Below, piece after piece: positions 16,469 through 32,029 of a DNA stretch of 32,878 nt. The number at the start of each line of letters is the position of its first letter. Position 1 is the stretch's first letter. The position numbers and the translations under genes are program-made. The notes beneath the pieces were generated by a model. The model made no database searches. It saw nothing but the letters and a program-made list of their open reading frames with translations, and was not told where the DNA came from. The DNA is from a virus: IMG/VR virus record IMGVR_UViG_3300049846_000684, positions 1 through 32,878 of that record; one strand, given 5' to 3'.

Positions 16469-19288
16469 TTATGCCGTGGCCGATTGCAGGATCACAAGAG
16501 GCCACTGATTTTGCGACGTTCCACCGGTGCCGGTGATGACGGACGAGTGAATCGACGCGGGCGCGACCCACTCGAACTGCGTCGGCGTCGTCGACACCGT
16601 CGAGACGATGCCATTCCACGGCATGCCCTGAATCGGCCCCGACGTGTTGGAGAAGCCAAAGGCGCCGGTGAACTGGCTCACGCTGTAGCGCCACGCCGAG
16701 CCCATGCCGAACAGCGCCGCCGACGAAGACCGGAAGTTGTACGCGTGCGCGATGAAGTACTCACCTGCGCTGAGCGACGTGGCCGACGACGTGGCATTGA
16801 GGCGGATCTCGTGCAGGCCCTGAATCGTCGCCGAGACGTTGCCGTTGATGCTGCTGCTGTTCGTCGTCGACGCGGACCACGCGCCCGGCCACCACGTCAG
16901 CGTTTGCGCGGTGACGCTGTTCTGCGAGTGCGCGGCGTTCCATGCAAACGACGTCACGAGCGACAGCGTCGATGCGTTGCGTGAGTAGATGCCGATCACG
17001 TGGCGGTGCGACCCGCTGCCGGTGCCTGCCGCTGTCGCCGCCACCGACACGATCGCCTTGACGTCGTTGAATGTGACGCCCTGACCGATGACGAGCGGCG
17101 CCACGTACCACGACAACGTCGACGACGAACCGCCAGCGACGGTGGTTGATGCGCCGGTGTACATGCTCGACGACGCCCACGGCCATGGCATGTCAGGGAA
17201 CATGCTCACGGTGGCGCCGCCGCCCGCTGCATTCACCGACGCCGTCACCGTCGAGCCGTTCAGCCCGAACGACACGCCGTTGCTGTTGCTGAACACAAGA
17301 TTGGAGAGGTTCTGCGACGTCGTGCCGGCGCTGATGTTGACGTTCGTGAGCCCGCCGCCGCCAGATGGGACGCTGATTACGACGCTGCCGTTGCTCACGC
17401 CGACGGACGCGACGCCTGCGCCAGCAAACGACAGCGCCGTAGCGTTCAGCGTGCCCGAGCTGCTTTGCGTGGTGTTGCTGACGGCGTGCGCGTTCAGGGC
17501 TTGGATGCTCTGCGACGTGATGCCGTTGTGTGACGCGGTGATCGTCGAGCCATTTAGGCCGAATGACACGCCGTTGGAGTTGCTGAACGTCACATTCGTC
17601 AGGACGTTCGACGTCGTTCCCGCGCTGAACGAGACGCCACCTGCCGCCCCGATGATCGTGACCCGCGACGCAGCAGAACCACCGGACACGGTGATGTTGG
17701 CTCCACCGGCAATCCTGAGCTGCGTTCCGCTGTAGAGGGACTCGCCGGCCGTGTTGCCAGCGAGCACCATGTTTGTCGACAGCGTCGCATAAAGACGAAC
17801 GCTGTTGTTCGTCTCCATGTGCCACGAAAATCCGTTCGCATTCTCGAATGCCAGCGTTCCGCTCGTCTGCGTCGACCCCGCGCCCGCGCTGCCCTGCACC
17901 ACGACAGCGCGGATGATATTTTGCGTCTGTTCACTCTGGCTTGTGATGCCGTTGTGCGACGCAAAAATCCCCTGCGTGCCAGTGGAGAAGCTGATTCCGT
18001 TGCTGTTGGCGAACGTGGCCGTCTGGAACGTGAAAGACCCGTTCGCGGCGCTGATCGCCTGGTTGCTCTGCGACGTCAGACCATTGTGCGACGCCGTCAC
18101 GGTGGACGCATTGAGCCCAAACGTGATGCCGTTGGCATTGCCGAACGTCACTGCGCTCAGGTTGTTCGACGTCGTGCCAGCCGACAGGTTGATCGCGGTG
18201 AGAGACGTCGCCACCGACGCGAAAACGCCCTGCGTGCCCGTCGAGAATGACACACCGTTGCTGTTGGCGAGCGAAAGCGTCTGGAACGTCGACGAACCAT
18301 TCGCCGCGCTGACAGCTTGGTTGCTCTGCGACGTCAGGCCGTTGTGCGAAGCGGTGATCGTCGACGCGTTGAGGCCGAACGTGATCCCGTTGCTGTTGGC
18401 GAAGGTGACGGCGCTGAGGTTGTTGCTCGTCGTGCCTGCGGACAGGTTGATGTTGGTCAGCCCGCCGCCGCCCGACGGGACCGAGATCACCACGCTGCCG
18501 TTGCTGACGCCGACAGACGCCACGCCGGCACCAGCGAAGGACAGCGCGGTCGCGTTCAGCGTGCCAGAGCTCGACTGCGTCGTGTTGCTGACGGCATGCG
18601 CGTTGAGGGCTTGGTTGCTCTGCGACGTGATCGCGTTGTGGGACGCGAAAATGCCCTGCGTTCCCGTCGAGAAGCTGATCCCGTTGCTGTTCGCGAATGT
18701 CGCCGTCTGGAACGTGAACGAGCCATTCGCCGCCGACAGGGCTTGGTTGCTCTGCGAGGTCAAGCCGTTGTGTGACGCCGTGATCTGCGACGCCGCCGTG
18801 TCGAGTCCGAAGCTGACGCCGTTGACGTCGCGGAACGACACGCGGTTGATGGTGTCGGCCTGCGTGCCTGCCGACACGCCGAGGCCCGCCGAGATGACCA
18901 CGGACCCGTTGCTGACGCCGACGGACGCCCCGCCGCCGCCGCGCACGACGATCGACGACGCGTTGAACGTTCCCGTCGACGACTGCGTGGTGTTGCCGGT
19001 GGCAAACGCCGTGATCTGCTGGTTGCTCTGGCTCGTCAGGCCGTTGTGCGACGCCGTCACCGTCGCGGAGCCAGCCATGCCGAACGTGATCCCGTTGGCG
19101 TTGCTCAGGATGACGCTGCCGGACGTCGCCAGCTGCGTTCCCGCCGAGATTGCGACGCCACCACCGCCACCCGTGATCGACGAGACGTTGTTGACCTCGT
19201 CGATCAGCTTCTCAAGCTGCTTTGTCGCCTCCGGATCGTTCTTCGCGATCTTGGCGAGCTGGTCACGGGTCAGGCGGAGGCGCGCCAT
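16469..19288 (-). CDS. Long repeat-containing tail fibre (tail-needle position)
   Basis: A 939-residue protein; ATG 19288 overlaps the gp10-like stop (TGATG) and was chosen over an upstream in-frame start at 19405. After a short helical N-terminus (MARLRLTRDQLAKIAKNDPE, ATKQLEKLIDEVNNV) it consists of many imperfect repeats built from SAGTTSNNLSAVTFANSNG, ITFGLNASTITASHNGLTSQ and SFSTGTQGIFAS modules. A non-repetitive C-terminal domain of about 230 residues follows (from MFPDMPWPWASSSMYTG to LVILQSATA). Similar repeat fibres are frequent in uncultured tailed phages. In P22 the gene after gp10 is the tail needle gp26; this fibre sits in that slot, with the N-terminal helix a possible attachment point. 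The C-terminal domain probably binds the receptor. Confidence 0.82.
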   Translation of the reverse strand: MARLRLTRDQLAKIAKNDPEATKQLEKLIDEVNNVSSITGGGGGVAISAGTQLATSGSVILSNANGITFGMAGSATVTASHNGLTSQSNQQITAFATGNTTQSSTGTFNASSIVVRGGGGASVGVSNGSVVISAGLGVSAGTQADTINRVSFRDVNGVSFGLDTAASQITASHNGLTSQSNQALSAANGSFTFQTATFANSNGISFSTGTQGIFASHNAITSQSNQALNAHAVSNTTQSSSGTLNATALSFAGAGVASVGVSNGSVVISVPSGGGGLTNINLSAGTTSNNLSAVTFANSNGITFGLNASTITASHNGLTSQSNQAVSAANGSSTFQTLSLANSNGVSFSTGTQGVFASVATSLTAINLSAGTTSNNLSAVTFGNANGITFGLNASTVTASHNGLTSQSNQAISAANGSFTFQTATFANSNGISFSTGTQGIFASHNGITSQSEQTQNIIRAVVVQGSAGAGSTQTSGTLAFENANGFSWHMETNNSVRLYATLSTNMVLAGNTAGESLYSGTQLRIAGGANITVSGGSAASRVTIIGAAGGVSFSAGTTSNVLTNVTFSNSNGVSFGLNGSTITASHNGITSQSIQALNAHAVSNTTQSSSGTLNATALSFAGAGVASVGVSNGSVVISVPSGGGGLTNVNISAGTTSQNLSNLVFSNSNGVSFGLNGSTVTASVNAAGGGATVSMFPDMPWPWASSSMYTGASTTVAGGSSSTLSWYVAPLVIGQGVTFNDVKAIVSVAATAAGTGSGSHRHVIGIYSRNASTLSLVTSFAWNAAHSQNSVTAQTLTWWPGAWSASTTNSSSINGNVSATIQGLHEIRLNATSSATSLSAGEYFIAHAYNFRSSSAALFGMGSAWRYSVSQFTGAFGFSNTSGPIQGMPWNGIVSTVSTTPTQFEWVAPASIHSSVITGTGGTSQNQWPLVILQSATA
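17230..19180 (-). repeat. Internal repeats of the tail fibre gene
   Basis: Units of about 75-100 codons recur. The clearest pair is about 17331-17515 and 18441-18625, which encode the same string of about 50 residues (NAHAVSNTTQSSSGTLNATA... to ...VISVPSGGGGLTN) yet differ at more than twenty bases, mostly third positions. A second pair (about 17940-18070 and 18630-18740) encodes near-identical GSFTFQTATFANSNGISFST segments. Confidence 0.85.
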
Positions 19289-20697
19289 CAGAATGCCAGC
19301 GGCGTGACCGCCGCCTCCAGACGCGCGAACGAGACGTGCGACGTCGAATCGCCCTGGAAACGCTGCATCCGACGGTTGCGGAACGCGCCCTGCCGGAACC
19401 AGCACAGCCGCTTGCGCCGATCACCCGTCCCGCCGACGGAGATCGAGAAGTCGCGCGACCACGTCACGCCGTCGAGGCTGTAGCTCGTCGAGATCGTGGG
19501 CTCCGTGCCGTATCCGTGGACGCTCGAGCCCGGAAGCGCGACGAGTTCAAGCCGATCGAGCACCGCGCCGCGCCCTTCGGCGTAGAGCATCGTCGTCGCA
19601 AACTCCCATCGCACTTCATCGCCCCAGTGCTGGCCCGTGGTGGCGTCGAGGTAGCCAAAAAACGCCTCGTCGGTGGGGTCGCCGACGTTCCATCGGTCGT
19701 AGCACCACGTCATGTGCTGGATGCGGTACTGCGAGAAGCCAGACAGACCCGACGTCAGGACGAACCAGACGGCTTGTCCAAGGGCCTGCGACGCGGTGGC
19801 GTCGTAGACGAGGGTGCGATCAGGAAGGTGGACGTAGAGATGCTGGTGCGCGCGGTCATTGCGTGCTTCCAGCACGGTGTCCGCGAGCTCGGCTTCGGTG
19901 AAGTCCTCGAGGATGCGGTCGATCTCGACGGTGCTGACCTTCTGCGTGGCCCCGCCACTGCCCACATAGACGCCCGGTGCCTCGTTCACGCCACCGCCAA
20001 GGAACGCAACGGCCTCCATGAACACGCACGCTGCATGGGTGCCGACGGCGCCCTTCGGAATCTGCGCGCCTTCAATGCGGGCGAAGGGGAAGCCGGTGCC
20101 GCCGACGTTGTCGAACACCTCGATCGTGTTGCGTCCGACGGCGTACACCTCGTTCCGCAGGCGCAGCAGGCCCACGATCGGGTCGGGCGACGCCTCAGCA
20201 GCGCCGTACTTGAGCGGGTTGATGGCAAACGGGTTGGTGAGGTCGCCGACGACGAGGTATTCGCCGTCCGTCGTCATCCAGTAGCCGTCGATCCAGAGCA
20301 CGTCGAGCACGGCGCCGAGGTCGGGATCGGTCACCTCGGTCAGCGTGCTCCCGTCGTAGAGGTAGAGGCGGTCACCGGCTGCGATGTAGAGGTAGTCGAA
20401 GCCGTAGTCCATCGTCGCCGTGCCGCCCGCCGCGACGGTGCCGAGAACCAGCACGTTGCCGTCGACGTCGATGCTCACAAAGTCGGTGCCGTGGATGGCG
20501 TACAGCGTGCCGTTCCAGTTGATCTGCGCGCGCGTGGCGCCACTGCCGTTGCCCAGCGCGTAGGTGCCTTCGGCGGGACGCAGGTAGCCGTTGCTCGCTC
20601 CGTTGGGGAGCGGCACGGGGACCATGTTCACCGGGTAGCTGATGCGGAAATCAGGCCCGTTGTCGACGTAGATTCCGCTCAGGATGGGGACCTGCAA
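19288..20697 (-). CDS. P22 gp10-like packaged-DNA stabilisation / tail accessory protein
   Basis: A 469-residue protein. Markers of the gp10 family are the N-terminal DNGPDFRISYPVNMVPVPLP and SNGYLRPAEGTYAL, and the C-terminal RRKRLCWFRQGAFRNRRMQR followed by FQGDSTSHVSFARLEA. P22 gp10 is about 472 residues, so length is normal. It forms part of the tail plug under the portal with gp4 and closes the capsid after packaging. It lies downstream of the gp4-like gene as in P22, with one fibre gene in between. Confidence 0.9.
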   Translation of the reverse strand: MQVPILSGIYVDNGPDFRISYPVNMVPVPLPNGASNGYLRPAEGTYALGNGSGATRAQINWNGTLYAIHGTDFVSIDVDGNVLVLGTVAAGGTATMDYGFDYLYIAAGDRLYLYDGSTLTEVTDPDLGAVLDVLWIDGYWMTTDGEYLVVGDLTNPFAINPLKYGAAEASPDPIVGLLRLRNEVYAVGRNTIEVFDNVGGTGFPFARIEGAQIPKGAVGTHAACVFMEAVAFLGGGVNEAPGVYVGSGGATQKVSTVEIDRILEDFTEAELADTVLEARNDRAHQHLYVHLPDRTLVYDATASQALGQAVWFVLTSGLSGFSQYRIQHMTWCYDRWNVGDPTDEAFFGYLDATTGQHWGDEVRWEFATTMLYAEGRGAVLDRLELVALPGSSVHGYGTEPTISTSYSLDGVTWSRDFSISVGGTGDRRKRLCWFRQGAFRNRRMQRFQGDSTSHVSFARLEAAVTPLAF

Positions 20698-30598: not shown

Positions 30599-30843
30599 TG
30601 CTTGCCCCCTTCCGGCAGCGAGTCGCGCAAAAGTCCCGGCCCACGCTCGTCGCCAAAAACGACATGCACAGGCGCATTGAAAAGCCTCTTGGCGACCGCA
30701 ACCCCGGTTCCCTGCGTCACCCACAGCTCGTCAGTGTCGTCAACGACATAGCCGTCGCTGGTCCTTTCCAGCTGCATTGCCACGATCCTGTCCGGTGCGT
30801 CGTCGGTTTGGATCACAACCACAAAAACAACATCTGCCGCCAT
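30595..30843 (-). CDS. Hypothetical small alpha/beta protein
   Basis: An 82-residue protein. ATG 30843 overlaps the upstream stop (TGATG). The hydrophobic N-terminal strand (ADVVFVVVIQTDDAPD) and alternating beta strands (RIVAMQLERTSDGYVVDD; GVAVAKRLFNAPVHVVFGDE) suggest a compact beta or alpha/beta fold. No family or catalytic motif is recognised. It lies between a ribbon-helix-helix regulator and a zinc-ribbon protein. Confidence 0.62.
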   Translation of the reverse strand: MAADVVFVVVIQTDDAPDRIVAMQLERTSDGYVVDDTDELWVTQGTGVAVAKRLFNAPVHVVFGDERGPGLLRDSLPEGGKQ

Positions 30844-31004
30844 CAGTCACCCTCTTTCTTGTCGCTCTGCGCCCGAGCCGCCAGTGCCTCGCGCACCAGG
30901 ATCGAGATCATGGCCGACCGGCTGCGCTCCTCGCGAATGGCGAGTGCGTCGACGGCCTCGAGCACCTTGGGATCCAGTTGCGTGTTCTGCTGCTTGCGGG
31001 GCAT
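30843..31004 (-). CDS. Ribbon-helix-helix (CopG/Arc-type) transcriptional regulator
   Basis: A 53-residue protein and the first gene of the leftward operon. The N-terminal basic strand (MPRKQQNTQLDPKVLEAVDA) followed by LAIREERSRSAMISILVREA is the classic strand-helix-turn-helix of RHH repressors, including the SRSAMI turn between helices. The C-terminus is charged (RAQSDKKEGD). RHH proteins dimerise and bind short inverted repeats. A suitable palindrome lies 39 bp upstream at 31043-31055, so it may autoregulate both divergent promoters. Below standard size cut-offs but well supported. Confidence 0.8.
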   Translation of the reverse strand: MPRKQQNTQLDPKVLEAVDALAIREERSRSAMISILVREALAARAQSDKKEGD

Positions 31005-31010
31005 GCGCCA

Positions 31011-31039
31011 ACCCTATGTCGTTGCCATCGTAGCGTCAA
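31011..31039 (-). promoter_or_regulatory. Leftward promoter
   Basis: TTGACG (minus strand, 31039-31034) and TAGGGT (31016-31011) are separated by 17 bp; the -35 matches 5/6. The predicted transcription start falls at about 31004, on the first base of the regulator's ATG, so the mRNA may be leaderless or nearly so. Confidence 0.5.
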
Positions 31040-31051
31040 GCGCGCTATGGT
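31022..31051 (+). promoter_or_regulatory. Rightward promoter
   Basis: TTGCCA (31022-31027, 5/6) and TATGGT (31046-31051, 4/6) are spaced 18 bp apart. The expected start is at about 31058, the ATG of the replication gene, and no Shine-Dalgarno sequence precedes that ATG. Overlaps the leftward promoter. Confidence 0.5.
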
Positions 31052-31055
31052 AGCG
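31031..31055. promoter_or_regulatory. Candidate operator with three TAGCG half-sites
   Basis: CGCTA (31043-31047) and TAGCG (31051-31055) form an inverted repeat with a 3-bp spacer over the rightward -10. A third half-site TAGCG lies at 31031-31035 near the leftward -35. The layout suits a ribbon-helix-helix dimer or tetramer, such as the product of the adjacent gene. No binding data. Confidence 0.4.
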
Positions 31056-31057
31056 GC

Positions 31058-32029
31058 ATGGCCGAATCTCTCTGGATCTCTGTTCCGGCGGATGACGATC
31101 CCCGCTTCGTCGAGCTCGGCGCGATCACCGGGCTCGATGGCCTGGTAGTGGCTGTCCGGCTGTGGCGTTGGGCAGCTCGGCACTACCCCGATGGCGATCT
31201 CAGCCGAGCAAAACCGGCCGTCCTAGCGATCACGGTCGGCGCGAAGGATCCGGCGGTGCTGCTGGCGGCGCTCGTTGAGTCCGGCCTGCTTGATGGCCAG
31301 ATGCGGCTGGTTGGCTGGGACAAGGTGTTCCGACTGTCGGTCAGTCGCGCTCGAGACGCCGCGCGCCAAGCCGCACGCCGCACAAAGCAGAACGACGACT
31401 CCGAATGTCACAGTGACATCACGCGGAATGCTGTCAGTGTTAGTGTCTCTGATCCGGATCCGGATCAGATCAGAGACATAGACAGCGATCCATGTGACGT
31501 CACGCGGACGTCCGTGGGATGTCACAGTGACATTCAGAACACCCGTTCCGAGAAACCTATTGCCCCGGTCCGCGACGATAGGTTGCGCGTCCCTGCCGAA
31601 TGGTGGAGCAGGGAGCCTGATGTGCTGCCGCTGGCCCGCCGCGTCGTTCGCGGCATGGATGCAGAGGAGGTGCTCGAGCTCCCCGATCCGGACAAGCCAA
31701 GCCAGACCCTTGGCCAGCGAATCCAGGCGGCGTGTGCTGGCCGATCGCCCGCGTGGGTGGCCACCGAGTGGGCGAGCCTCTGGCCGAAGGCGTCGGCGGC
31801 TCTTGTGGGCCCCATGACGCGCCCGTGGGTGGAGATCTCGCGGCGCTTCGGCTGGATGCAGGAGTCCGCAGCTCGGGCAGAGCGATCACAGCGCCCCCCA
31901 TGGCAACCCGCACCAGCCGATCCCGCCGACGACCTCGCCCATTGGCGCGAGATCAAAGCGCGTCAGGACGCGGAAGCAGCGCGGCGGGCCGAGGCTGCGG
32001 AGCCGGAGATCGGTGATCTGGACTTCTAG
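31058..32029 (+). CDS. Replication initiator-like protein (replisome organiser type)
   Basis: A 323-residue protein, first gene of the rightward operon. The N-terminal part (1-110) begins MAESLWISVPADDDPRFVEL and contains GLDGLVVAVRLWRWAARHYP, LAALVESGLL and similar helical segments, like the winged-helix N-domains of phage replisome organisers. Residues 116-175 form a low-complexity linker (SVSVSDPDPDQIRDIDSD). A C-terminal domain (180-280) has AEWWSREPDVLPLARRVVRG and MTRPWVEISRRFGWMQ. The linker DNA carries palindromes and repeats, as in phage origins inside initiator genes. No Shine-Dalgarno sequence is visible. Strict homology to a named family is not certain. Confidence 0.7.
   Translation: MAESLWISVPADDDPRFVELGAITGLDGLVVAVRLWRWAARHYPDGDLSRAKPAVLAITVGAKDPAVLLAALVESGLLDGQMRLVGWDKVFRLSVSRARDAARQAARRTKQNDDSECHSDITRNAVSVSVSDPDPDQIRDIDSDPCDVTRTSVGCHSDIQNTRSEKPIAPVRDDRLRVPAEWWSREPDVLPLARRVVRGMDAEEVLELPDPDKPSQTLGQRIQAACAGRSPAWVATEWASLWPKASAALVGPMTRPWVEISRRFGWMQESAARAERSQRPPWQPAPADPADDLAHWREIKARQDAEAARRAEAAEPEIGDLDF
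31405..31533. other. Candidate replication origin within the initiator gene
   Basis: Outer palindromes ATGTCACAGTGACAT occur twice (31405-31419 and 31519-31533). TCACGCGG occurs twice (31419-31426 and 31500-31507) and GTGACGTCAC once (31494-31503). At the centre, TGTCTCTGATC (31444-31454) and GATCAGAGACA (31468-31478) form an inverted repeat around the perfect palindrome GATCCGGATCCGGATC (31451-31466). GCTGTC (31430-31435) and GACAGC (31481-31486) extend it. The array lies in the linker coding region, the location used by lambda-type origins. Confidence 0.6.

Follow-up and report, generated by a model that had tools for sequence, protein, structure and literature searches.

The window, by which we mean the whole stretch of DNA analysed here, is a 32,878 bp IMG/VR virus contig without end repeats that encodes a P22-like portal and terminase. 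The features that concern us lie toward its right end, around a gene that we annotated as a replication initiator:

31058-32029, plus strand: replication initiator gene P0001 (323 aa), assigned through phrog_9474 and an HMM of relatives
P0001 residues: winged-HTH-like N-domain (about 10-115), disordered linker (about 120-210) and weakly predicted helical C-terminal part (about 218-313)
31022-31051, plus strand: promoter-like site TTGCCA-18-TATGGT, 5′ of the initiator gene (consensus match only)
30843-31004, minus strand: gene for a small ribbon-helix-helix (CopG/Arc-like) protein (PF01402, E 1.9e-6), diverging from the initiator gene

The ribbon-helix-helix product probably regulates the divergent promoters. 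Elsewhere on the contig, a 24-bp unit is repeated 9.5 times in tandem (score 318) at positions 1-229, the left contig end, and a 258-bp unit is present twice (78% matching, 17957-18451) inside a 978-aa minus-strand ORF (16469-19405). At the right contig end (32788-32878) a gene is cut off, and the first residues of its product have a weak match to an exonuclease PHROG (phrog_298, E 0.07).

That P0001 is an initiator had been proposed from the sequence, and the profile searches agree. The protein matched phrog_9474 (replication initiation protein) at E 2.9e-9 over residues 33-140; this was its sole family match, none of the O-like PHROGs (e.g. phrog_345, phrog_18020) being found at E≤1, nor any Pfam family at the same threshold, RepA_N (PF06970) included. 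An HMM built from relatives and the window places P0001 in the initiator family, and phmmer with P0001 alone retrieved the relative L056 at E 1e-12. The motif W-x-W-A-x4-P-D-G-D-L is present at residues 36-48 and is invariant across our alignment A4, the majority of whose members were fetched using that same motif. P0001 forms a long branch, with a best identity of 36% over the N-domain. By profile it is a divergent member of phrog_9474, and by sequence it is neither a lambda O-like protein nor a member of RepA_N.

AlphaFold2 (27 relatives) gave a pLDDT of about 95 over residues 10-115 and below 55 across most of the linker; the model has a long helix at 87-123, disorder up to about residue 210 and then the helical C-terminal part. 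When the N-domain was compared using VIA-align, the first structure was 4pta, 'Structure of MDR initiator' (Z 5.2, 80 residues, rmsd 3.2), then came winged-helix proteins (LexA, Rex and MarR-type). Foldseek searches of PDB and BFVD had no hit at E≤0.001. These middling scores fit a winged-HTH reading of the predicted N-domain and nothing beyond it.

Within the gene, the codons for residues 116-159 carry a dense array of repeats:

31405-31419: box 1, ATGTCACAGTGACAT, odd palindrome, GTCAC-A-GTGAC
31419-31426, plus strand: first copy of TCACGCGG, part of GTGACATCACGCGGA
31430-31435: GCTGTC, left arm of the inner inverted repeat, read from the sequence and paired in the single-strand fold
31444-31478: inverted repeat TGTCTCTGATC / GATCAGAGACA, arms 31444-31454 and 31468-31478, hairpin z -4.2
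31448-31469: central perfect palindrome TCTGATCCGGATCCGGATCAGA, 22 bp, inside the inverted repeat, with a tandem GATCCG core
31481-31486: GACAGC, right arm of the inner inverted repeat, read from the sequence and paired in the single-strand fold
31494-31503: box 2, GTGACGTCAC, within element 31494-31508 and overlapping the second TCACGCGG copy (31500-31507)
31519-31533: box 3, ATGTCACAGTGACAT, same as box 1 and 114 bp from it
31425-31484: least stable 60-bp duplex of the record, -1.35 kcal/mol per step (record mean -1.62), a candidate unwinding element

The initial annotation had described nested palindromes at 31405-31533. All the elements that it listed are present at those positions, as is the range of residues that it gave for them, and its claim was slightly understated: the pair of 15-bp palindromes stands as described (7-bp arms with the central A free), the central palindrome measures 22 bp instead of 16, and GTGACGTCAC had been overlooked as a further box. 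A longer word, GTGACRTCACGCGGA, is found twice, at 31413-31427 and at 31494-31508, each time including one of the TCACGCGG copies. The GTCAC/GTGAC half-box is found six times in the 129 bp of the array, whereas the whole record holds 91 copies of GTNAC against 121 expected, so that 6 of the 91 fall within the array. Allowing up to 2 mismatches, neither the promoter region (31007-31057) nor any other part of the record has a further copy of the boxes. The central palindrome is the longest of the record; in dinucleotide-shuffled versions, palindromes with arms of at least 11 occur about 0.08 times per record. When we counted 7-mers whose reverse complement occurs in the same stretch, the array reached 56, compared to a record mean of 5.2 and 30 in the next-best stretch, which makes its inverted-repeat density the highest in the 32.9 kb.

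Such repeats could in principle be a by-product of low-complexity coding, slippage and an SDPDPD dipeptide repeat having produced them without selection at the DNA level. The core of the central palindrome is indeed a tandem of GATCCG, which encodes SDPDPD, and since this 6-bp unit is self-complementary, part of the symmetry comes cheap. However, the tandem leaves both 15-mers, the GTGACRTCACGCGGA pair and the outer arms unexplained, and the inverted 7-mer count of the array was never attained in 20,000 synonymous recodings (same peptide, genome codon usage) nor when the synonymous codons already present in the region were permuted 20,000 times.

Relatives of P0001 were obtained only via a motif scan and via a Microcystis phage protein. 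Neither tblastn with P0001 against phages and plasmids nor scanning contigs, viral or genomic, for peptide patterns yielded any. The scan of viral contigs at the DNA level for W-x-W-A-x4-P-D-G-D-[LF] gave 36 loci, each with an HMM-confirmed member, and with a second motif we retrieved 46 viral loci and 24 from genomes; most of the genome loci come from Firmicutes, others from Chloroflexota, Planctomycetota and Proteobacteria. In isolated Firmicutes phages that carry relatives, the initiator gene adjoins genes for SSB, ERF and DnaC-type loader proteins. Two other comparisons were set aside: the TerL relatives (Xanthomonas phage PBR31 and Manatee Spring contigs) encode different replication proteins and thus offer no linker to compare, and the box plus CGG, when searched for in viral contigs, turned up once, in an unrelated ORF, which we read as chance.

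For each member, we tested the repeats in the DNA directly past the N-domain against synonymous recodings (p<0.05), the window being counted both in the first set of 33 members and in the non-redundant set of 67. Among the first 33, direct repeats were in excess in 29 linkers and inverted repeats in 14, compared to 2 and 6 N-domain segments, respectively. The initial annotation had named linkers devoid of palindromes in related phages as an outcome that would speak against it. For repeats in general the 67 linkers do not show this outcome, direct repeats being in excess in 59/67 (88%); palindromes as such are significant in only 24/67. N-domain segments of the extended set showed direct and inverted excess in 5/68 and 7/68. 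Linker repeats are thus a trait of the initiator family, and given the lower share of inverted repeats, what is conserved is iterated DNA words, palindromic or otherwise. Conservation of P0001's own boxes was not found in close relatives.

The excess is rare in other low-complexity segments of the same contigs: the lowest-complexity windows of other long ORFs, some of which are perhaps not real genes, gave direct excess in 23/180 and inverted excess in 11/180. As these control windows are even lower in complexity than the linkers, slippage in simple coding sequence is insufficient to explain the repeats, and we regard a by-product of coding as the least credible origin of the array.

We also observed an HNH endonuclease domain inserted in-frame in the linker of several initiators, where it separates the N-domain from the repeat array (L049 and L054, PF01844; also L080, L092 and L101). 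In L049 and L054 the insert lies early in the linker, and the repeats and folding potential are placed 3′ of it. The domain is present in L049 and absent in its near relative L042.

As single-stranded DNA, positions 31400-31540 fold into one nested hairpin at -39.5 kcal/mol, against -21.5 ± 2.5 expected (z -7.3). This raises the question of whether the array acts as RNA, a 130-nt nested hairpin in the initiator mRNA governing translation or RNA decay; the strength of the fold (z about -6 to -7) and linker folds with z below -2 in 18/33 relatives would suit such a role. However, the linkers of L044 (z 0.05), L048 (-0.8) and L057 (-0.1) have direct repeats at p 0.001 yet no strong hairpin, an Rfam scan was empty, and inverted DNA words suffice to give the folding, so that we find a function in RNA very unlikely. 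A tRNA scan was empty as well. The 22-bp palindrome with its arms, being a stable hairpin, might alternatively be extruded as a cruciform and recognised or nicked, as in rolling-circle plasmids of the pT181 type, whose double-strand origin sits inside rep (PMC5703833). Against this, P0001 lacks a relaxase-type domain in Pfam, NCBIfam and PHROGs, and a nested hairpin as strong as that of the window is not typical of the relatives; an origin of the cruciform type would be more surprising still than an RNA element.

The array had been placed in a low-complexity linker; AlphaFold2 predicts this linker to be disordered, and the array holds the record's least stable duplex. By nearest-neighbour energies this soft tract (31425-31484) sits between box 1 and box 2, and set against every 150-position stretch of the record, its softness has a p of 0.005. 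As a group, linkers have a lower stability than the DNA around them (KS p 4e-5 over 27 records, the window and 26 relatives), although taken singly only 6/27 reach p<0.05. The soft tract of the relatives lies on average about 90-150 bp past the N-domain and usually 3′ of the boxes, whereas in the window it is flanked by them; boxes around a soft tract within a large nested palindrome were not seen in the relatives that we read. In relatives such as L042, L032, L056 and L060, a short-period A/C- or A/G-rich tract (units ACAGT, CTAAC, GGACA, AGGAG) often follows 3′ of the boxes, about where the low-stability stretch falls. It is possible that this tract is a second conserved origin element.

Palindromic sites look like operators, and a promoter-like site lies 5′ of the boxes. 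The initiator could therefore bind them chiefly for autoregulation or copy control, as an internal operator on its own transcription, with the origin elsewhere. However, the boxes lie about 350 bp inside the gene, none has a copy in the promoter region, and the soft duplex between them and its recurrence in relatives suit an origin better. We thus consider an operator role improbable.

We propose that the array within the initiator gene is the putative replication origin of this phage, to which the initiator would bind through the boxes while the soft tract melts, and we put the probability of this reading at roughly 80%. Via their N-terminal domain, copies of the initiator would occupy the three GTCAC-type boxes (31405-31419, 31494-31503 and 31519-31533) and build up a nucleoprotein complex that puts the low-stability stretch under strain; the single-stranded DNA opened at 31425-31484 would then take the replicative helicase, and replication would start at the array. 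The peptide encoded by the array would serve as a disordered tether whose sequence is nearly irrelevant, and being hardly constrained as protein, the linker DNA would be free to carry the sites. GC skew, suggested initially as a check on the origin, proved uninformative: it shifts near 31 kb in the window, where the genes diverge, and there is no mark at the initiator gene in six complete relatives. As the contig is incomplete, another origin could lie elsewhere.

Box words differ among members of the family. GTCAC boxes occur in the window, L028, L046, L056, L058, L064 and others, GTAAC boxes in L032, L037, L038, L042 and L060, CACGTG boxes in L033 and L034, and GGAYRTCC boxes in L047 and L062; the box of the Microcystis phage is AACCGTTCAC and that of phage Harrison GTCACG. 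Arrays of GTNAC, the half-box of the window, are found in 13 of the approximately 35 linkers of the first set. In 35 linkers GTNAC occurs 104 times against a synonymous null of 57 ± 4, and in equal lengths of N-domain DNA 13 times against 14. The GTCAC and GTAAC labels do not cluster on the N-domain tree. Conceivably, the family has an evolvable recognition code in which the basic helix that follows the winged HTH (87-123 in P0001) reads the boxes, its tip and the boxes changing together; we think this rather doubtful. The pairs of tip and box are DRERQ with GTCAC, NRxR with GTAAC, MRxxR with ACGTG and SRxRR with GACGAC, and the association between helix-tip residue and box class has a p of 0.0002 over 18 core-non-redundant members, the classes having been chosen after inspection. 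L042 and L049 have most of the N-domain and the later gene part in common and differ in helix tip and boxes. However, a generic Mantel test of the helix-box link had no decisive outcome, and partial Mantel values were alike for the helix (0.21) and the C-terminus (0.19), so that linkage could account for the association. A bZIP-like recognition is possible because the boxes include TGACGTCA, GTTACGTAAC and CACGTG; bZIP_1 (PF00170) had no match in the P0001 peptide at E≤10, and L042 alone matched it (E 0.006, under Pfam's cut-off).

To our knowledge, the origins of most environmental phages are unknown. Our results would give a rule for a widespread initiator family, namely to seek the origin in the linker-coding DNA directly past the N-terminal domain, and the family could serve as a natural library of initiator-box pairs for how initiator DNA recognition changes. 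We found no report of such a linker-array rule for the phrog_9474 family in the literature that we searched; subscription reviews on phage replication modules, notably that of Weigel and Seitz from 2006, may anticipate it.

The relatives within phrog_9474 (for example those of Paenibacillus phage Harrison, Roseburia phage Shimadzu and Microcystis phage Mwe-Yong1318-1) are N-domain homologues with linker repeat arrays; they have box words of their own, and the window member is a long branch among them. Outside the family, the iterons of lambda O are imperfect inverted repeats in the middle of gene O, beside an AT-rich, easily melted tract (PMC7466680). In lambda and its Stx-phage variants, as in P0001, the sites lie in mid-initiator gene, form inverted repeats and adjoin a melting tract. 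However, P0001 matches no O-like PHROG, the boxes of the window are of the GTCAC type, and three of them bracket the soft tract where in lambda a row of iterons flanks the AT-rich one. The oriL of SPP1, located within gene 38, consists of repeats and a soft element and is bound by gp38 (PMC6316719). It resembles the P0001 gene in placing both inside a phage initiator gene, but has direct repeats and an AT-rich DUE in place of nested palindromes. The rep gene of pSK41 encodes an initiator of about 320 aa whose N-terminal winged HTH of about 120 aa binds boxes in linker-coding DNA, and whose central, ori-encoding linker (121-199) is dispensable as protein (PMC5703833). P0001 is similar in size, in its N-terminal winged-HTH-like domain and in its boxes in the linker, and 4pta is the best structural match to its N-domain. 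In contrast, it has no RepA_N match, the Z for 4pta is only 5.2, the boxes differ, and one system is a phage and the other a plasmid. By analogy, the linker repeats have the same placement as the proven-origin sites of lambda O, SPP1 gene 38 and pSK41 rep, and both linker sites and a melting tract, as in this class of gene-internal origins, are present here. We therefore call the arrangement in the window a variant form of the lambda/SPP1/pSK41-like logic, in which the boxes bracket the soft tract within a nested palindrome.
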